A stretch of 41,088 bases of DNA. Source: Salinivirgaceae bacterium (GTDB lineage: Bacteria > Bacteroidota > Bacteroidia > Bacteroidales > SZUA-534). The position numbers and the translations under genes were made by a program. Of the stretch, positions 683 through 19,903 are shown piece after piece. The stretch spans positions 1 through 41,088 of the forward strand of contig JAQICC010000443.1 of the NCBI GenBank assembly GCA_027858735.1, written 5' to 3'. Under the pieces are notes generated by a model. It ran no database searches, was not told where the DNA came from, and saw only the letters and a list, made by a program, of their open reading frames with translations. Position 1 is the first letter of the stretch; every line of letters begins with the position of its first letter.

Positions 683-3600
683 ATGAAAAATTTCTTACAA
701 ATTAAGTTTTGGCAAATTTTAGCCGTTTTTACAGTTCTACTTTTAAACTGTAATAATATGTTTGCTACACATACATTAACCAATAGTGAAGTTGAGGTAG
801 TTGATGGAGTACTGAAAAAAGTTACCTACAAGGGTACCGACAGAGACATTATTATTCCAAGTTATCTTGATGACCAAACAATTACAGAATTAGGATATCA
901 AATATTCGGTTCAAGCCCTGCAATGATTTCTGATCTTAAATTACCTTCAAGCTTAAAAATTATTCAAGCTAATTCAATGGTAGCTACCTATATAAAATCC
1001 GTAAATATACCAAGTGGAGTAACCGAAATTGGGAGTAGAGCTTTTGCATATAACAGACTTAGCACTATTACCATTCCATCGAGCGTTGAAATTATTGGCG
1101 ACCGTGCTTTTAATAACGGCGACTTAACCAGTGTAACCTTTTCAGGAACACCAAATATTAAAAAGATTGGTGCTTATGCTTTTAAAAGTGATGAAGGTTT
1201 AAGTTCTGTTTCATTTACTTACAACCCTAATGTTATCCCAAATTTTAAATATTGGTATAGCGATGGTAAAAAATATACAAGCCAATTTACTATAACCGAT
1301 TTTACTGAAGAATATAAAGCTATTGCAAAATATACATTAACCGATAATGATGTTGTTGTTGAAAATGGAAAAATAACTAGCGTTTCGTACGATTTTTCTG
1401 ATCAATATATTGCATTTCCAAATTCGCTTGATGGTCAATACATTACCGAAATTCATAGAGGATTTAAAGCAAAAAAATTAATTGAATTGGAATTACCCGA
1501 TTCATTAAAAATAATTGGTGATACTGCTTTTTATTCTAATATAATAGCATTTGCAAATTTACCCGATGCTTTAGTAAATATTGGTAAAAATGCCTTTTAC
1601 AATAATAAACTTGAAAATATTAATATTGGTAAAAACGTTAAACGTATTGAAGCAAACGCTTTTTACATGAACAATTTAAATTCTGTGACTTTTAGTTCTG
1701 ATGCAGTGCTAAGCTATATTGGAGAAAGCGCATTTGAAGGAAATAAAGATGCTAGGTTCTTTGCTGCAAATAATATTACCAGCATTACATTACCTGCAAC
1801 TATTGATACTATTGGCGATTATGCATTCTATAAAAATAGCCTTAGCTCGGTAACTATACCTGATAGCACTATTAGTATCGGAAAATTTGCATTTGCCCAA
1901 AACGATCTTAATTCACTTGATATTCCTGAGAAAGTTAAATCGTTAGACATAGCTTGTTTTGCTGAAAACAAGTTAACAACAGTGACCTTTAACGGTAGTA
2001 TCAAAACGATTGCCGATTCGGCATTTTTCACTAATAATATTACAGCTCTAACATTATTAGAAGGAACAGAAGATATTGGTGTAAAAGCATTTTACAACAA
2101 TTTAATCGATAGCTTAACCATACCTGCATCGGTAACAACCATTAACGAAGATGCTTTTTCAAATAACTATGGATACTCAAGTACTTCCCAAAAAATTATG
2201 AGTCTTGTTTTTGCTGAAAACAGCCAATTAAAATATGTGGGTGATAAGGCCTTTGAAAAAAACAAATTATCAATAGTAATCTTTCCAAAATCGTTAGAAT
2301 ATATTGGATATCGTTCATTTAATAGCAATGCTATTGATAGTGTAAATTTAAATGACTGTAATTTATTAAGTAACATCGGATTCAATGCTTTTAGCTCTAA
2401 TGCTAGTGAACTAAAAAATATTCATGTTCCGCAAACTACCTTGTCTGGTTTTATAAAATGGATTGACAGTGATGATAGCACTTATACTGGGGCTTTTAAC
2501 ATTACTGATTTTAGTAACTCATATAAGGCCATAATCAGTCACACCCTAACCGATAACGATGTTGAAGTAATAGATAACAATATAATAAATTGTACTTACG
2601 ATTTTTTAGGTAGCGTAATTACAATACCTGACACATTAGACAATCAGCTTATTAAAGGCATAACCGCTTCACAATTCGCAAATAAAAATATATTCAATAT
2701 TAAACTCCCTTCAAAGCTTGAATATATTGGAGCTAATGTATTTTCGATCAATAAACTTAGTGAAATAGACATCCCTGCAAGTGTTACCTATATTGGCGAG
2801 GCTGCTTTTGATAACAATAAATTAGCAGCATTAACTCTTCCCAAGAATGTTCATAAAATTAGCAAGAACGCTTTTAGCAATAATGAATTAACCTATGTAG
2901 AAATACCTAATAAGGTTGATACAATAGAAATGAGTGCATTTGCCATGAATAAATTCGATAGTATACTAGTTATACCTGAAAATGTAAATTATGTGGGCAA
3001 TTCAGCTTTCGATGGATCCTATTCCAATGATAATCTTGATACTGTAATATTTAAATCAACAGGCAAACTGCATTATATTGGTAAAAAGGCATTTGAAAGT
3101 AGAAATTACAATTCATTTGTGCTACCCGTTGCTAAAAAACGCTATTACGAATTCAATGAATGGAAAACCAATTATTACGACAAAATGCAGCCCGGTGACA
3201 CTGTTCCTACTCATAAAAGTTATGCTGCGCAGTTTACTCAAAAAATAACCGAAATTTATAATTTATCAGGTACTGTAACAAATGCTGATGATATTCTAAT
3301 TACATTTAAAGTAAACAATGAAATTTATGATTCAATACTATGCAACTCAAATAGCACCTATAATTTCGAGGCTGGGGTTGGTGAACAAATCACAATTACG
3401 CCTAAAAAAGAAGGATACGTTTTTGAACCTTCTTATTATTACATTTCCCCATCTCAAGACAGCTTATCTCTTGACTTTGAAGCGTTAAAAGCGTATACCT
3501 TAGAAGGTATGGTTACTGGTGTTTCTGATGGTAATATAAGAGCTGATATATATAAGGGTAGTAATAAATATCTTTCAATTACATCAGATAGTACTCAATA

Positions 3601-5662
3601 CAAATTTACTGTAGGACAAGGCCAAATGGTTAAAATTTATCCATACAGCAAAGGATATGCATTCACCCCCCAAACAGTTGAGATTGACAGTGTTTTTGAA
3701 AACAGAACAAATATAAACTTTGAAGGATACAAAGCATGTAATATAAGTGGTTACCTGGATATTGATAGCACCTACATTTACCTCACTTATAACGACACTG
3801 TTCAAGATACAATCTTCCGTAAAAATATATCATACTACGCAACAGTACCTTATGGTGCTAATGTTAAACTATCGGCTCATAAAGATGGTTATAAATTTAG
3901 CCCTGAATCTCATGTTATCGATAGCATTATCAACGACACATCGCATGTTAGCTTTACCAGCCAAAAAGCTTATGAGTTATCAGGCACCATTACCGGAGCC
4001 GATAATGTAAAGCTGTTATTTAGTTCAAATAATGAAATTATTGATAGCATTATGGTTGAATCTGATGGTGATTCATACTCTTATATTGCAGTAAAAAATG
4101 AAACAATAACTATTAAAGCCGTAAAAGAAGGGTACACTATTGAACCTACAGAATATACAATTGCTGATATTGAAACTGATAGTACCGGACTTGATTTCAA
4201 CATCGTTGAAAACTTTACCTTAAGTGGTACAGTATATAATAGTCCAAACTCAAGCGTTCGCTTATATGTAGATGATGTTTTGGTAAACAATTCATATATT
4301 GATTCTGATTCTTCTGAATATGCATTTGAAGTAAAAAAAGGATCGGATATTAGTATTAAAGTAACCAGATATAATTTCGTGTTTGAACCTGAAACCATTA
4401 CCATTGATGGTGTTGTGGCTGATTCTGCAAATCTTGACTTTGTAGGTACACGAGCATACTTCAATGCTAAATTTTTAGTAATAGACGAAGAAAACAATCC
4501 AATTGATTCTGCTTTAATTAACATTAATGACACCAGTTTAATGACCGGTTATTATGGGAATGCAACACTGGATAACTTAAAAATTAATGAATATCAATAT
4601 ACCGTTAATTTAGAAGGGTTTACGACATACATTGATACCTTGGTTTTCACAACCGAAAATGCTGTTGATACTATTGTATTAAAAGAAATACCCACAGTAA
4701 CACAACTTGTAACATTTAATGTGACCGAGGGCACAAACAATCTTGAAAATGCTGAAATAAGTATTAATAATACAACTCTAATAACAAGTGCTGAAGGTAT
4801 TGCTACTGTTGAATTACCTGAAGGCGATTATACATACACTGCTTTACTGCAAGGTTATATTACCGCTGAAGGAAATATCACAATAAGTGATCAGGCAGTA
4901 AACGAAGCTGTAGAATTGGCTATTGATAACAGTATCTTATACACCGTTGAATTTAAAATTACTGATAGCGATACTGTACTAAACAATGCCGCAATTGCTA
5001 TTAACGATACTACTATCTATACCGATTCAACAGGTTATGCACAATGTAATTTGGTAAATGGTGATTATATTTACACAGTATCACTCAATGGTTATAATAG
5101 CAAATCAAATACCATAACTGTAGCAATGGAGAATGTACTTAGCGAAATTGAGCTAAATGTAATTCCAGAAGGCTCTCTGTTAATAACATTTACAGTTACC
5201 GATGGTGCAAACATTTTACCTGGTGCTACTATAACTATTGATGGTGAAGATTTAATTGCTGATGAAAATGGTATAGTTTCAACTTATCTTTTATCAAATA
5301 CCTATACCTACACTATAACTCTTGAAGGTTATGCCGATATTACAGATGAGGTTGCGGTTAATGATGCAGATGTAGACATTGAAATTACAATGACTCTAAT
5401 TTCAAGCTTTAAAGAAGCAAATTCAATGAATTTCTCTTACTATCCAAACCCTGCAACAAGCAATATTACAGTAGAAATGACAACTGAATCTGATGTAAAA
5501 TCGCTAGTTATTTATAGCGCAACAGGATCGGTACTTTTCTATTCTGATAATTTAAATAGAAAAATGCTTATTGATATTAGCAGTTTCCCTAGCGGAATAC
5601 TTCTATTAAAAGCCCTAAATGCCGATGGTATAAGCATAAGTAAACAAATAGTTAAACAATAG
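683..5662 (+). CDS. BspA-like leucine-rich repeat surface protein with T9SS sorting domain
   Basis: A secreted, cell-surface protein of 1659 residues, probably for adhesion or binding. A signal peptide covers about residues 1-29. Residues about 30-850 are BspA/LRR_5-type leucine-rich repeats (units such as IPSSVEIIGDRAF) arranged in three blocks. Each block opens with a TLTDNDVxV-like motif, near residues 30, 217 and 620. Residues about 860-1260 are five or six repeats of roughly 80 residues starting with a LSGTV-like motif. Residues about 1260-1570 are four PEGA/carboxypeptidase-regulatory-like beta repeats. The last ~85 residues (YYPNPATSNITVEM and onward) are a typical type A T9SS sorting domain, which predicts export through the type IX system and anchoring or release at the surface. 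An ATG at 671 is followed at once by a stop, so 683 is the start. The repeat architecture is clear; the ligand is unknown. Confidence 0.88.
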   Translation: MKNFLQIKFWQILAVFTVLLLNCNNMFATHTLTNSEVEVVDGVLKKVTYKGTDRDIIIPSYLDDQTITELGYQIFGSSPAMISDLKLPSSLKIIQANSMVATYIKSVNIPSGVTEIGSRAFAYNRLSTITIPSSVEIIGDRAFNNGDLTSVTFSGTPNIKKIGAYAFKSDEGLSSVSFTYNPNVIPNFKYWYSDGKKYTSQFTITDFTEEYKAIAKYTLTDNDVVVENGKITSVSYDFSDQYIAFPNSLDGQYITEIHRGFKAKKLIELELPDSLKIIGDTAFYSNIIAFANLPDALVNIGKNAFYNNKLENINIGKNVKRIEANAFYMNNLNSVTFSSDAVLSYIGESAFEGNKDARFFAANNITSITLPATIDTIGDYAFYKNSLSSVTIPDSTISIGKFAFAQNDLNSLDIPEKVKSLDIACFAENKLTTVTFNGSIKTIADSAFFTNNITALTLLEGTEDIGVKAFYNNLIDSLTIPASVTTINEDAFSNNYGYSSTSQKIMSLVFAENSQLKYVGDKAFEKNKLSIVIFPKSLEYIGYRSFNSNAIDSVNLNDCNLLSNIGFNAFSSNASELKNIHVPQTTLSGFIKWIDSDDSTYTGAFNITDFSNSYKAIISHTLTDNDVEVIDNNIINCTYDFLGSVITIPDTLDNQLIKGITASQFANKNIFNIKLPSKLEYIGANVFSINKLSEIDIPASVTYIGEAAFDNNKLAALTLPKNVHKISKNAFSNNELTYVEIPNKVDTIEMSAFAMNKFDSILVIPENVNYVGNSAFDGSYSNDNLDTVIFKSTGKLHYIGKKAFESRNYNSFVLPVAKKRYYEFNEWKTNYYDKMQPGDTVPTHKSYAAQFTQKITEIYNLSGTVTNADDILITFKVNNEIYDSILCNSNSTYNFEAGVGEQITITPKKEGYVFEPSYYYISPSQDSLSLDFEALKAYTLEGMVTGVSDGNIRADIYKGSNKYLSITSDSTQYKFTVGQGQMVKIYPYSKGYAFTPQTVEIDSVFENRTNINFEGYKACNISGYLDIDSTYIYLTYNDTVQDTIFRKNISYYATVPYGANVKLSAHKDGYKFSPESHVIDSIINDTSHVSFTSQKAYELSGTITGADNVKLLFSSNNEIIDSIMVESDGDSYSYIAVKNETITIKAVKEGYTIEPTEYTIADIETDSTGLDFNIVENFTLSGTVYNSPNSSVRLYVDDVLVNNSYIDSDSSEYAFEVKKGSDISIKVTRYNFVFEPETITIDGVVADSANLDFVGTRAYFNAKFLVIDEENNPIDSALININDTSLMTGYYGNATLDNLKINEYQYTVNLEGFTTYIDTLVFTTENAVDTIVLKEIPTVTQLVTFNVTEGTNNLENAEISINNTTLITSAEGIATVELPEGDYTYTALLQGYITAEGNITISDQAVNEAVELAIDNSILYTVEFKITDSDTVLNNAAIAINDTTIYTDSTGYAQCNLVNGDYIYTVSLNGYNSKSNTITVAMENVLSEIELNVIPEGSLLITFTVTDGANILPGATITIDGEDLIADENGIVSTYLLSNTYTYTITLEGYADITDEVAVNDADVDIEITMTLISSFKEANSMNFSYYPNPATSNITVEMTTESDVKSLVIYSATGSVLFYSDNLNRKMLIDISSFPSGILLLKALNADGISISKQIVKQ

Positions 5663-15676: not shown

Positions 15677-18600
15677 ATGAATTATTCTCTTGGAATTGAT
15701 ATTGGCTCAACAAGTGTAAACACTGTGATATTAAGCAGTGAGAATAAAATAACCAAAGAATATTACGATTATGCCTATGGCAAACCTTTCCATTTTTTAC
15801 ACAAACGGCTTCAAGATATATTTAAGGATTACCCTCAAGTTAACCTAAAACACATTTCTTTCACAGGATCTGGAGGAAAAAAAGCCGTTGAAATTCTAGG
15901 AGGAATAACAATAAATGAAATTATTGCCCATTCAACTGCAGCTGCAGAACTTTTTCCAAGTGCAAAAACCATTATTGAAATGGGAGGTGAAGATTCTAAG
16001 CTTATTTTCATGGGGAATGGCCTTATCAAAGGGCAGTCGTACCTGTCAGATTTTGCCATGAATAGCTTATGTGCTGCGGGTACGGGCTCATTTCTCGATC
16101 AGCAATCGAAACGAATTGGAGTTAGTATTGATAAGGAATTTGGCGAACTCTCATTAAAATCGAAAAATCCACCAAGAATTGCAGGCAGGTGCAGTGTTTT
16201 CGCCAAAAGCGACATGATACACTTACAACAAATTGCTACCCCAGTGCATGATATAGTGGCCGGATTATGTTTTGCTGTTGCACGGAATTTTAAAAGCACT
16301 TTAGGTAAAGGGAAATCAATTACAGCTCCTGTATTATTTCAAGGTGGCGTTGCTGCCAATATTGGCATGATACGTGCATTCCGCGAAATCCTTAACTTAC
16401 AGGAAGATGAATTAATTATACCAAAGCATCATGCATCAATGGGAGCAATTGGAGCATCACTATATTATCAAAAAAACACTGCCGATTACATTCCATTTAA
16501 AGGCATTGAATCACTTGAGAAATTTATTAATAATGCTGAACAGAGTAAGTATTCAAATCTAAAACCATTGGTAAGAAGAACTTACACCTTAAACAAAGAA
16601 ACTCGCGATATTAGCAAAGAAACCGAACTTGTTGATGTTTTCTTGGGTATTGATGTCGGCTCATTAAGCACCAATGTTGTTTTAATTGATAAAGATATTA
16701 ACGTTATTGCTCGAAGGTATCTTCCTACAGCAAGTAAACCTTTAGATGCTATAAGGCGTGGCTTATCTGAAATAGGCGATGAAATTGGTAAAAAAGTAAA
16801 TGTTGTAGGTGTTGGAACAACAGGTTCTGGCAGGTACTTAACAGGCGATTTTACTGGGGCCGATACCATTGTTAATGAAATAACTGCCCAGGCAACAGCC
16901 ACTATTGCTTCTAATCCGGAAGTAGATACCATTTTTGAAATTGGTGGACAAGATTCTAAATACATACAAATTGAAAATGGGGTAATCGTTGATTTTGAAA
17001 TGAACAAGGTTTGCGCTGCTGGAACAGGATCATTTCTTGAAGAACAAGCTGAAAAATTAAATATTAACATTAAAGAAGAGTTTGAGCACCAAGGCTTTCA
17101 GGGACGTCACCCTTCAAAACTTGGTGAACGTTGCACTGTCTTTATGGAGAGCGATCTCAACTCTTTATTACAAAAAGGCGATAATAAAGAAAACCTTATT
17201 GCCGGTTTAGCCTATAGTACTGTTCAAAACTACATTAACCGTGTGGTTCGCGATAAACCAATCGGTAAAAATGTTTTTTTTCAGGGTGGTGTAACCAATA
17301 ACAAAGCTGTTGTTGCAGCATTTGAAGAAATTACGGGTAAAAAAATTAACATTCCTCCTCATTTTGATATAACTGGAGCCATAGGCGCTGCAATACTTGC
17401 CCGAGAGAACATGAACAATGGGCAACAAACAAAATTTAAAGGTTTCAATGTTGGCAAAGCACCTTATACAACCGATAAATTTATCTGTAAAAAATGTTCG
17501 AACCAGTGTGAAATAAGACTTATTAAGGTTGAAGGTGAGAAACCGCTTTTTTATGGCGGAATATGTGACATCTACGAAATGGCAGACAGAAAAGGTAAGG
17601 GGAAAGACATACCAAACCTGTTTGATGAGCGAATGCAAATGTTACTAAAAGACTATACTCCAAAAGTAAAAACTACAAAAACCACCATTGGGATACCCCG
17701 TGGCCTCATGTTATTTTATCAGCAGTTTCCGTTTTGGAAAAGCTTTTTTGAGAAACTTAATTTTGATGTCGTAATTTCAGGAGAATCGGACAAAACAATC
17801 CTTACCAACTCCATTGAAATGATGACCGCAGAGACTTGTTTGCCTGTTGAACTTATTCATGGACATGTAAATGATTTACTAGATAAAAACATTGATTACG
17901 TTTTTCTACCCTTTGTAGTAAATAATAAAAGTGACAAAAAAGACAAAACAAGCAGTGCAAATTGCCCATGGGTGCAGTCTAATCCGTTTATGGTTAAAGC
18001 GGCACTAAACAAACACAAAAACGTAGACAAGCTGCTCATACCCACCCTTCATTTTAAATACTTTGATACGGCTTTTCAAAAAGAGATTAGCAGCTTTATG
18101 AATGATAAATTCGGATTTTCAAAAGCAAAAATTAAAGAAGCTATAAATATTGCAAATACTGCACAAGAAGCGTTTGAAGCCGCAATTTCGGCAAGAGGAA
18201 AAGAAGTTTTAGCAAATCTACCGAAAAATAAAATGAGTTTTGTAATACTTGGTAGGCCTTATAATACAGCCGATCCGATGCAAAACCTAAGTTTGGTTGA
18301 AAAACTTATTAAAATGGATATTTTACCTATTCCTCAAGACTTTATGCCTTGGCAGAATGAGGATATTACAGATGCCTATCCGAACATGTATTGGCCTAAT
18401 GGGAAAAAAATATTGTCCGCTGCCAGAATTGTTAACAGAACAGAGAATTTGAATGCCATTTACTTAGGTAATTTTAAATGTGGCCCCGATACTTTTATTC
18501 AGCACTATGTAAAAAAAGAAATTAAAAACAAACCTTACCTTCATCTTGAGGTAGATGAACATAGTGCCGATGCCGGCATGATTACACGCATTGAAGCCTT

Positions 18601-19903
18601 TGTAGATAGTTTAAAAGGATCTTTCGCTTCCACACAAAAACAAGCCCTTTTTGTAGATCATACACAAAACCCAACACCAAATTTAAAAGGTAGAACCTTA
18701 TATTTTCCGTACGGTCGTGATGCTATTTATGTTTTTGCTGCAGCCTGTAAAAGTGTCGGCATAAAGGCCGAAGTATTACCTATGCAAGATGAAACCGACA
18801 TAGAAATTGGCAGAAAGCATACAAACGGACAAGAATGTTTTCCAATGATTGCAACTACAGGAAGTTTTGTAAAAAAACTAATGGAACCAGGGCTAGATCC
18901 TAAAAAGGTAGCTTTTTTTATGCCTGATCATAATGGACCGTGTAGGTTTGGTAATTACAACAAACTGCAGCGAATTATATTCAATAAACTGGGGTTTAAC
19001 GATGTTGAAATTCTTCAACCCAGTAACGACGATTCATATGCCAGTGTTGCACCAGGACACTCTACCCAATGGCGTACCCTTGCTTACAAAGGCATTATTG
19101 CTATTGACCTATTACGAAAAATGCAACAGCAAAAACGACCATACGAACTCATAAAAGGTCAAACAAACAAGGTATATAAGGAATGTTTAAGCAGTGTTGT
19201 AGAATCAATTGAAAAGGGTGGAAAAGATTTAGTATCGGTAATGAAAGAATCGGCAAGAAAATTCAAAACTATAGCCTATTCAAACGGAGAAAGAAAGCCT
19301 GTTGTAGCCATTGTAGGTGAAATATTTATGCGCGATAATCCCTTCTGCAGCAGCTTTCTTGTAGACCGTCTTGAAAATTTAGGCGCCGAAACTTTAATGG
19401 CTCCATTTGGAGAGTGGTTAAACTACTCAACCTATCGATATGGACGTGATAGCAAATGGAAAAAAGACACCAAAGGGCTTATGAAATCTAAAATGCAAGG
19501 TTTCTTTCAGCATCATTTTGAGGATCAATTAGTTAGAGCCGTGTCGGGAATATTCCCTTTAGAGGAAGAAATTCCAGTAAAAGATATGCTTTCAGAAAGC
19601 AACAAATACATTCATCAAGATTACGATGGTGATCCTCCAATGGCTTTGGGCACAGCTTCTATTCTATCAAAAAAATACGTTTCGGGCATTGTAAATATCT
19701 TACCATTTTCTTGCATGCCAGGTACACTTAACACTTCAGTTTCCGATGTTTTCAGACAAGATAACAATGGGCTACCTTGGGAAAACTTTGCATACGATGG
19801 GCAAGAAGATAGCTCCTCGGAAACAAGGTTTCAAGCATTTATGTATCAAGTTAAAGAATATTCAAGAAGAAAGGGCTTTAATAAAATAGCCGCAAAATGC
19901 TAA
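15677..19903 (+). CDS. Acyl-CoA dehydratase activase fusion: two BadF/BcrA-type ATPase domains plus DUF2229-like region
   Basis: A 1408-residue protein of the 2-hydroxyacyl-CoA dehydratase activator type: ATP-driven, iron-sulfur electron donors that reduce a partner enzyme. Two ASKHA ATPase domains lie in tandem. The first has GIDIGSTS (6-13), GGEDSK and CAAGTGSFL with Cys132, then RCSVF with Cys172. The second, offset by 314 residues, has GIDVGSLS, GGQDSK, Cys446 and Cys486. In HgdC these two cysteines from each of two subunits hold one [4Fe-4S] cluster, so the fusion could hold it inside one chain. A CKKCSNQC motif follows near 604. The C-terminal ~740 residues resemble DUF2229/HgdB-like sequence with cysteines in AETCLPVE, KCGPDTF, GQECFPM, NGPCRFG and FSCMPGT. 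No separate dehydratase gene adjoins. Long fusions of this type occur in anaerobes; their substrate is not established to my knowledge. Confidence 0.88.
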   Translation: MNYSLGIDIGSTSVNTVILSSENKITKEYYDYAYGKPFHFLHKRLQDIFKDYPQVNLKHISFTGSGGKKAVEILGGITINEIIAHSTAAAELFPSAKTIIEMGGEDSKLIFMGNGLIKGQSYLSDFAMNSLCAAGTGSFLDQQSKRIGVSIDKEFGELSLKSKNPPRIAGRCSVFAKSDMIHLQQIATPVHDIVAGLCFAVARNFKSTLGKGKSITAPVLFQGGVAANIGMIRAFREILNLQEDELIIPKHHASMGAIGASLYYQKNTADYIPFKGIESLEKFINNAEQSKYSNLKPLVRRTYTLNKETRDISKETELVDVFLGIDVGSLSTNVVLIDKDINVIARRYLPTASKPLDAIRRGLSEIGDEIGKKVNVVGVGTTGSGRYLTGDFTGADTIVNEITAQATATIASNPEVDTIFEIGGQDSKYIQIENGVIVDFEMNKVCAAGTGSFLEEQAEKLNINIKEEFEHQGFQGRHPSKLGERCTVFMESDLNSLLQKGDNKENLIAGLAYSTVQNYINRVVRDKPIGKNVFFQGGVTNNKAVVAAFEEITGKKINIPPHFDITGAIGAAILARENMNNGQQTKFKGFNVGKAPYTTDKFICKKCSNQCEIRLIKVEGEKPLFYGGICDIYEMADRKGKGKDIPNLFDERMQMLLKDYTPKVKTTKTTIGIPRGLMLFYQQFPFWKSFFEKLNFDVVISGESDKTILTNSIEMMTAETCLPVELIHGHVNDLLDKNIDYVFLPFVVNNKSDKKDKTSSANCPWVQSNPFMVKAALNKHKNVDKLLIPTLHFKYFDTAFQKEISSFMNDKFGFSKAKIKEAINIANTAQEAFEAAISARGKEVLANLPKNKMSFVILGRPYNTADPMQNLSLVEKLIKMDILPIPQDFMPWQNEDITDAYPNMYWPNGKKILSAARIVNRTENLNAIYLGNFKCGPDTFIQHYVKKEIKNKPYLHLEVDEHSADAGMITRIEAFVDSLKGSFASTQKQALFVDHTQNPTPNLKGRTLYFPYGRDAIYVFAAACKSVGIKAEVLPMQDETDIEIGRKHTNGQECFPMIATTGSFVKKLMEPGLDPKKVAFFMPDHNGPCRFGNYNKLQRIIFNKLGFNDVEILQPSNDDSYASVAPGHSTQWRTLAYKGIIAIDLLRKMQQQKRPYELIKGQTNKVYKECLSSVVESIEKGGKDLVSVMKESARKFKTIAYSNGERKPVVAIVGEIFMRDNPFCSSFLVDRLENLGAETLMAPFGEWLNYSTYRYGRDSKWKKDTKGLMKSKMQGFFQHHFEDQLVRAVSGIFPLEEEIPVKDMLSESNKYIHQDYDGDPPMALGTASILSKKYVSGIVNILPFSCMPGTLNTSVSDVFRQDNNGLPWENFAYDGQEDSSSETRFQAFMYQVKEYSRRKGFNKIAAKC

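Follow-up and report, generated by a model that had tools for sequence, protein, structure and literature searches.

A stretch of 41,088 nucleotides (positions 1 to 41,088, forward strand) of contig JAQICC010000443.1 of a Salinivirgaceae bacterium (order Bacteroidales, assembly GCA_027858735.1), called the window here as a whole, encodes a protein of 1408 amino acids in which two acyl-CoA dehydratase activase halves, a four-cysteine module and two reductase lobes follow each other in one chain (Table 1). The protein belongs to a clade of a published enzyme architecture, that of the plasmalogen synthase PlsA and the glycerol ester reductase Ger, and is not an orphan activase. Its most probable role is that of an ATP-dependent radical reductase, complete in itself, which belongs to the benzoyl-CoA reductase / 2-hydroxyacyl-CoA dehydratase superfamily and turns an acyl ester into an ether.

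Domain architecture of the fusion protein

Pfam recognised two BcrAD_BadFG stretches, DUF2229 (residues 670-889) and a weak HGD-D tail (residues 901-979), and NCBIfam recognised two acyl-CoA dehydratase activase (CoA_E_activ) stretches. The activase domains lie above the curated cut-offs, with two stretches for each model (PF01869, 254 bits; TIGR00241, 313 bits). The PF06050 tail reached 32.0 bits when lobe 1 was scanned alone (cut-off 28.4) and 27.1 bits, below the cut-off, in the whole protein. In the Pfam scan, the four-cysteine module had no model match and lobe 2 of the window protein no significant match of its own; its E-value with DUF2229 was 0.21 (not significant), while free-standing lobe 2 homologs matched DUF2229 with E 1.8e-06 and 4.9e-14.

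The first-pass annotation, made from the sequence alone, had described an activase with no partner. Since the partner is the protein's own C-terminal half, acting in cis, this description does not hold. Its further suggestion that donor and acceptor are fused in one chain is borne out by the fold of lobe 1, which is that of the 2-hydroxyacyl-CoA dehydratases (HAD), benzoyl-CoA reductases (BCR) and double-cubane cluster proteins (DCCP), and by relatives that are split at the domain borders.

Table 1 Features of the fusion gene in the window
Feature	Position	Strand	Basis
Coding sequence, 1408 aa, Act1-Act2-4Cys-Red1-Red2 fusion	15677..19903	+	ATG to stop; homologs in 80 named loci
Activase half 1, residues 1-270, with C132, C172 and the canonical adenosine loop GGVAAN	15677..16486	+	Pfam/NCBIfam, phmmer, alignment
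Activase half 2, residues 320-580, C446 and C486	16634..17416	+	Pfam/NCBIfam, phmmer, alignment, model match to HadI 4ehu_B
Four-cysteine module, C604-X2-C-X3-C-X18-C630, candidate iron-sulfur or zinc site	17486..17566	+	Alignment; no Pfam name
Reductase lobe 1, residues ~653-985, DUF2229 and HGD-D tail, C721/C763/C935, TRIEA motif	17633..18631	+	Pfam, alignment, model match to HadC
Reductase lobe 2, residues ~1000-1400, C1054/C1089/C1346	18674..19876	+	Alignment; in Fusobacterium and Monoglobus a gene of its own, labelled "2-hydroxyacyl-CoA dehydratase"

Conservation of cysteines

Two cluster-cysteine pairs had been noted in the activase halves, Cys132/Cys172 and Cys446/Cys486, and the spacing is indeed 40 in both. 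The phmmer alignments place C132 and C172 on cluster motifs in MbdQ and the second pair, C446 and C486, on those in HgdC. The alignment used to assess conservation contained 124 full-length rows plus the separate halves of seven split genes; its 92 rows with >45% identity are called close rows. All four positions hold cysteine in 92/92 close rows. Among distant rows the counts are 39/39 for Cys446, 40/40 for Cys486, 40/41 for Cys132 and 40/43 for Cys172, and the exceptions (one at 132, three at 172) are all misaligned C-terminal halves of naturally split genes. Neither activase half loses its pair across the family.

In total, 14 positions hold cysteine in all close rows that are not gapped at the site: 132, 172, 446, 486, 604, 607, 611, 630, 721, 763, 935, 1054, 1089 and 1346, the denominator being 92 except at 935, 1054 and 1089 (91) and at 1346 (90). 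At these positions 38 to 40 of the distant rows with a residue have cysteine. Thirteen of the 19 cysteines lie within the 88 of 1408 columns that are conserved to at least 98% (hypergeometric P ~2e-12, phylogeny ignored). The C-terminal part had been credited with many conserved-looking cysteines, and 10 of its 14 are cysteine in all close and distant rows with a residue, the exceptions being 1024, 1170, 1224 and 1408. C198 and C1224 are marks of the close clade; 1024, 1170 and 1408 show no conservation. Besides the two pairs, the invariant set thus includes the CX2CX3CX18C module and two cysteine triplets (721/763/935 and 1054/1089/1346).

The cysteines of the module (604-630) are invariant in every row that has it, across the three clades A, A2 and PlsA introduced below, with a Paraclostridium relative as the exception; the single activase of Monoglobus carries the module at its C-terminus. 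The PlsA clade shares the same 14 invariant cysteines (31/31 rows at 13 positions, 30/30 at the last). The exception is a plasmid-borne relative of 1282 aa from Paraclostridium bifermentans (L160:2992-6840), which lacks the module and, in the alignment, all three lobe 2 cysteines, and which keeps the cysteines of the activase part and of lobe 1. In genome G004, the fusion gene of one relative (L011) is interrupted by in-frame stops, possibly as a pseudogene or through an assembly error; it was left out of the alignments.

Structure models

Both structure models were confident. The model of residues 590-1408 had a mean predicted local distance difference test score (pLDDT) of 89.2 and a predicted template modelling score (pTM) of 0.87; for residues 1-640 the values were 88.1 and 0.72. 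Lobe 1 (model residues 64-392) matched 3o3n_B with Z 15.0 and a root-mean-square deviation (rmsd) of 3.8 over 271 aligned residues; we take this chain to be HadC of the complex named in the search result. Further matches of lobe 1 were the BzdNO chain 8s02_B (Z 14.5) and the DCCP entries 7yyl_D (Z 14.2) and 6eno (Z 13.9), and unrelated rows in this search start at Z 7.3. With Foldseek, the best E-value for the C-terminal model was modest (2.0e-05), and besides DCCP and BzdNO chains the list consisted of unrelated proteins. A profile of the C-terminal half gave no match at E 1 among PDB sequences, so that the fold search alone ties this half to HAD. In the model, lobe 1 is an acceptor with the HAD/BCR/DCCP fold and a three-cysteine candidate cluster site (C721/C763/C935).

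Activase half 2 matched HadI 4ehu_B with Z 29.8 and rmsd 2.1 over 257 aligned residues, and HadI, MbdQ and HgdC all scored Z 29 to 30. Over half 1, pantothenate kinases (Z about 20) made up the fold rows because one row was shown per entry; half 1 was placed by its sequence, which aligns with MbdQ. By homology with solved activase dimers, the two halves would face each other around one cluster.

Distribution and natural splits

A scan of genome contigs confirmed 532 loci, of which 80 were kept; the locus counts of the neighbourhood survey below refer to these 80. They encode proteins with 55-81% identity and come mostly from metagenome-assembled genomes (MAGs) of Bacteroidales, with several Spirochaetes and the isolate Maribellus sediminis. 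Within the order, the query matched at E ≤0.001 in 107/295 genomes, in some over activase domains only, and therefore represents a gene that is common in part of the anaerobic Bacteroidales, not a curiosity of one genome. In the wider phylum 8/148 genomes matched at the same threshold, the seven besides the source genome over single activase domains only.

In seven loci the gene is split at the border between activase and reductase, giving a gene for the double activase (592-646 aa, measured from stop to stop) and one for the rest (615-900 aa) on the same strand; the second gene extends to at least residue 1241 in six of the seven and is shortened in L155. In Fusobacterium the split lies between the two reductase lobes, and in Monoglobus three genes share the parts, one for an activase that ends in the four-cysteine module, one for a DUF2229/HGD-D protein and one for a second reductase. 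All seven activase/reductase splits and the Fusobacterium split fall in the PlsA clade of the 55-row tree. The activase / DUF2229 / 2-hydroxyacyl-CoA dehydratase set of Monoglobus (L161:2995-6212) adjoins dapF and a gene for a TSCPD-domain protein.

The first-pass annotation had also found no dehydratase gene nearby. This stands for the window, where none was present among the 20 of 28 other open reading frames (ORFs) of at least 100 aa that were scanned, and for the genome at Pfam sensitivity: the source genome (98.9% complete) had no PF06050 match, its PF01869 matches were confined to the two activase halves, and PF09989 occurred once. PF06050 was above the cut-off in 0/40 relatives, with sub-threshold matches in three. 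These PF06050 searches failed to recognise the fusion's own lobes too, so a strongly diverged partner could be overlooked.

Phylogeny, marker residues and paralogs

Two trees were calculated, one with 55 rows and one with 30 rows without the two longest branches (Paraclostridium and L128); their roots are arbitrary. As PlsA references they contain Listeria (L159), Collinsella, Fusobacterium, Acetoanaerobium and Haliovirga. The label of the Listeria protein rests on its grouping and on the statement in a review that Listeria holds orthologs of plsA-plsR (PMC9702350). A long-branch warning applies within A2 in both trees, and Paraclostridium and L128 are long in the 55-row tree.

Three groups were found, each with one change in the 30-row tree: clade A, which contains the window protein and consists of anaerobic Bacteroidales and Spirochaetes; A2, from other Bacteroidales; and the PlsA clade with Listeria, Acetoanaerobium, Fusobacterium, Collinsella, Haliovirga and many Bacteroidales. 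In activase half 1, the adenosine-loop residue N228 is present in 92/92 close rows, 10/10 A2 rows and 2/31 PlsA-clade rows. Position 450 is T in 92/92 close rows versus C in 31/31 PlsA-clade rows, and position 973 is E in 91/91 close rows with a residue versus R in 30/31. Clade A keeps a canonical adenosine loop in half 1, and the PlsA clade has an altered one; in A2, the phosphate-loop residues 104-106 of half 1 are altered. The TRxEA motif of Monoglobus Red1 likewise contains the E, and the activase of Monoglobus shares 44% identity with half 2 of the window protein versus 34% with Listeria. By these comparisons, the residue states of the PlsA clade look derived. Paralogs coexist in several genomes: A and the PlsA clade in G023 and G315, A and A2 in G033, G287, G368 and G283, and A2 and the PlsA clade in G336.

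Gene neighbourhood

The neighbours in the window are ordinary, with an ABC exporter upstream on the other strand and a sugar nucleotidyltransferase downstream. A survey of gene neighbours, which the first-pass annotation had proposed, yielded recurrent neighbours in subgroups and no gene common to the whole clade. A dicluster ferredoxin gene lies upstream on the same strand in 18 of the 80 loci (directly adjoining in 14), and genes for the hybrid-cluster protein (Hcp), Crp-family regulators, AhpC/TSA proteins and LepA occur in 5, 16, 7 and 6 loci, respectively. Neighbour names were taken from one representative per cluster and near-duplicate loci were kept in the counts, which are lower bounds because many contigs end early. 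Ferredoxin, Hcp, Crp and AhpC neighbours are limited to subgroups, and none occurs among the scanned genes of the window. They fit a demand for low-potential electrons in anaerobes and do not name a substrate. As no neighbour is common to the whole clade, the neighbourhood was dropped as a clue to function. The dicluster ferredoxin gene often has a His-rich stretch and is sometimes accompanied by genes for Hcp and a Crp-family regulator; it is upstream in one Bacteroidales subgroup, in L047, L057, L059, L061, L063, L069, L073 and others.

Among relatives, the Paraclostridium gene adjoins a Crp/Fnr gene and ABC transporter genes. The neighbours of sister group A2 show no theme, except for a radical SAM gene in two loci. 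This gene (L174:5403-6302 and L175:4991-5932) is divergent to the A2 genes in two genomes and encodes a protein with a lipoyl-synthase-type N-terminus. A TetR gene directly upstream of pls is described for E. faecalis and other facultative anaerobes in the review (PMC9702350); in Listeria L159 none was present among the three neighbouring ORFs scanned.

Discussion

The architecture found here has published counterparts. PlsA consists of the domains Act1, Act2, Red1 and Red2 with conserved cysteines (PMC12838417, Fig. 8 legend); the plsA-plsR plasmalogen synthase has been reviewed (PMC9702350), and expression of the single-gene PlsA of E. faecalis, L. cremoris or B. longum in E. coli yields plasmalogen (PMC12838417). 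Ger is a PlsA-like protein that makes alkyl ethers (PMC11150832, PMC13274423), and validated Ger proteins are PlsA homologs with two activation domains (PMC13274423; also PMC11150832). Enzymes of this architecture, once expressed, give vinyl-ether or alkyl-ether lipids (PMC12838417, PMC11150832, PMC13274423). The first-pass annotation had called the reaction open; because the architecture is already published, this holds only for the product of clade A.

The window protein shares with PlsA (Clostridium perfringens, Enterococcus faecalis, Lactococcus cremoris, Bifidobacterium longum) the one-chain order Act1-Act2-Red1-Red2 of the single-gene forms, the length of about 1400 aa and the occurrence in anaerobes, and with the Listeria member the 14 cysteines. 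The least secure element of this likeness is the fold of lobe 2. It differs in belonging to a separate clade and in keeping N228, T450 and E973. Ger of Thermotoga maritima and Desulfatibacillum alkenivorans, compared by description and not by sequence, is likewise PlsA-like with two activase domains (the D. alkenivorans protein has 159 kDa) and has homologues in MAGs of Spirochaetota and Bacteroidota; the alkyl-ether product in E. coli is that of Ger. With the activases HgdC, HadI and MbdPQ the protein shares the ASKHA fold, as matched by half 2, and two cluster cysteines per half, but those activases are separate subunits, whereas here two halves are fused to each other, to the four-cysteine module and to the acceptor. 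An HgdC-type stand-alone activase was ruled out by this fusion to acceptor lobes and by the absence of PF06050 from the genome searches. HadBC, BzdNO and DCCP resemble the protein in the fold of lobe 1 and, for BzdO, in the three-cysteine pattern, but the identity is ~10-14% and neither lobe has the six-cysteine set of the double cubane. The catalytic [4Fe-4S] cluster of BzdO is held by Cys95/128/380 and the double-cubane [8Fe-9S] cluster by six cysteines, a ligand count taken from BzdN (PMC11971306). The cysteine spacing of lobe 2 (35, 257) resembles that of BzdO, a likeness in sequence spacing without a structural test. With three invariant cysteines per lobe versus the six needed for [8Fe-9S], membership in DCCP was ruled out.

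For the reaction we infer an acyl-ester (lipid) substrate, the cluster types and the path of the electrons as follows. The cycle would begin with ferredoxin or flavodoxin reducing one [4Fe-4S] cluster, which C132, C172, C446 and C486 would bind between the two activase halves. Both halves, whose adenosine loops are both canonical, would then bind and hydrolyse ATP and fire a low-potential electron, which could pass, perhaps via the 604-630 module, to clusters on the three cysteines of each reductase lobe. There the substrate carbonyl, most likely that of an acyl ester of a membrane glycerolipid, would become a ketyl-type radical anion; reduction and dehydration would then give a vinyl or alkyl ether, as in PlsA and Ger.

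We lean, with slightly better than even confidence, towards a PlsA/Ger-like ester reductase that acts as one chain, the product being left unspecified. Several points weigh against this assignment. A and A2 are separated from the PlsA clade with a support of 100 in the Shimodaira-Hasegawa-like approximate likelihood ratio test (SH-aLRT) in both trees, on branches of 1.91 and 2.06 changes per column; the window protein is only ~26% identical to Listeria PlsA; and the two clades differ at positions 225-228, 450 and 973. Judging from these sequence differences, the function of clade A may have changed relative to PlsA. The fold search with lobe 2 gave generic Rossmann-type matches only and no specific PDB match, possibly because lobe 1 filled the match list. 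No lipid gene was seen adjoining the fusion gene, and in one Bacteroidales subgroup the neighbours are genes for Crp, ferredoxin and the hybrid-cluster protein, which point to redox stress over lipids. That the window protein is the organism's plasmalogen synthase itself, orthologous to the enzymes of clostridia and lactic acid bacteria, would agree with the identical domain order and 14 cysteines, and plasmalogens are reported in Bacteroides (PMC10056535); yet clades A and PlsA stand apart with one change each, the markers N228, T450 and E973 differ, and G023 and G315 hold copies of both clades. Tree and marker residues led us to reject orthology with PlsA, and the reading is accordingly quite improbable. 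An alkyl-ether-forming Ger, with clade A as the Ger clade, is a better candidate, albeit still an unlikely one. Two activase domains accompany Ger and alkyl ethers (PMC13274423), and a Black Sea screen reported Ger homologues in 19/28 Spirochaetota and 9/273 Bacteroidota MAGs (PMC11868695), in keeping with the Spirochaetes and Bacteroidales of clade A; the isolate label BS150m of L014 resembles, in our own reading of the label, a Black Sea MAG. However, verified single-gene PlsA also has two activase domains (PMC12838417), and the cited papers on PlsA and Ger state that the two cannot be told apart by sequence alone (PMC13274423). Somewhat less doubtful, although still tentative, is the proposal that clade A represents a new type of ATP-driven radical reductase in a single chain, with both ATP sites canonical, a four-cysteine module that would serve as an electron relay without counterpart in classical activases, and a product different from plasmalogen, such as an alkyl ether or some other reduced acyl compound. 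If so, genomes with two paralogs would make two products.

A non-lipid substrate, such as a CoA thioester or a small stress molecule, would make the protein an enzyme of redox homeostasis. The same-strand ferredoxin genes upstream of 18 loci, the Hcp, Crp-family and AhpC/TSA genes beside others and the Crp/Fnr gene beside the Paraclostridium relative speak for this, but such neighbours occur only in subgroups, where they may reflect shared synteny, none was seen in the window, and the nearest characterised relatives work on lipids; we regard this reading as improbable, though less so than orthology with PlsA. An activase serving a separate dehydratase encoded elsewhere is hardly credible. Its activase halves are much like HgdC, HadI and MbdQ, but they already carry a fused acceptor whose cluster cysteines are conserved, and the searches that missed the fusion's own lobes found no PF06050 in the nearly complete genome and none above the cut-off in the relatives. 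With PF01869 confined to the fusion, a stand-alone activase with a distant partner was rejected on these genome searches.

A clearly separate paralogous clade with fixed marker residues allows a direct test of whether sequence can separate makers of vinyl ethers from makers of alkyl ethers, and would help to interpret ether-lipid genes in anaerobic Bacteroidales and Spirochaetes. The protein also offers a one-chain system for the study of ATP-driven low-potential electron transfer.

Elsewhere in the window, positions 683-5662 encode a large BspA-type leucine-rich-repeat protein of 1659 aa with a secretion-system sorting tail.

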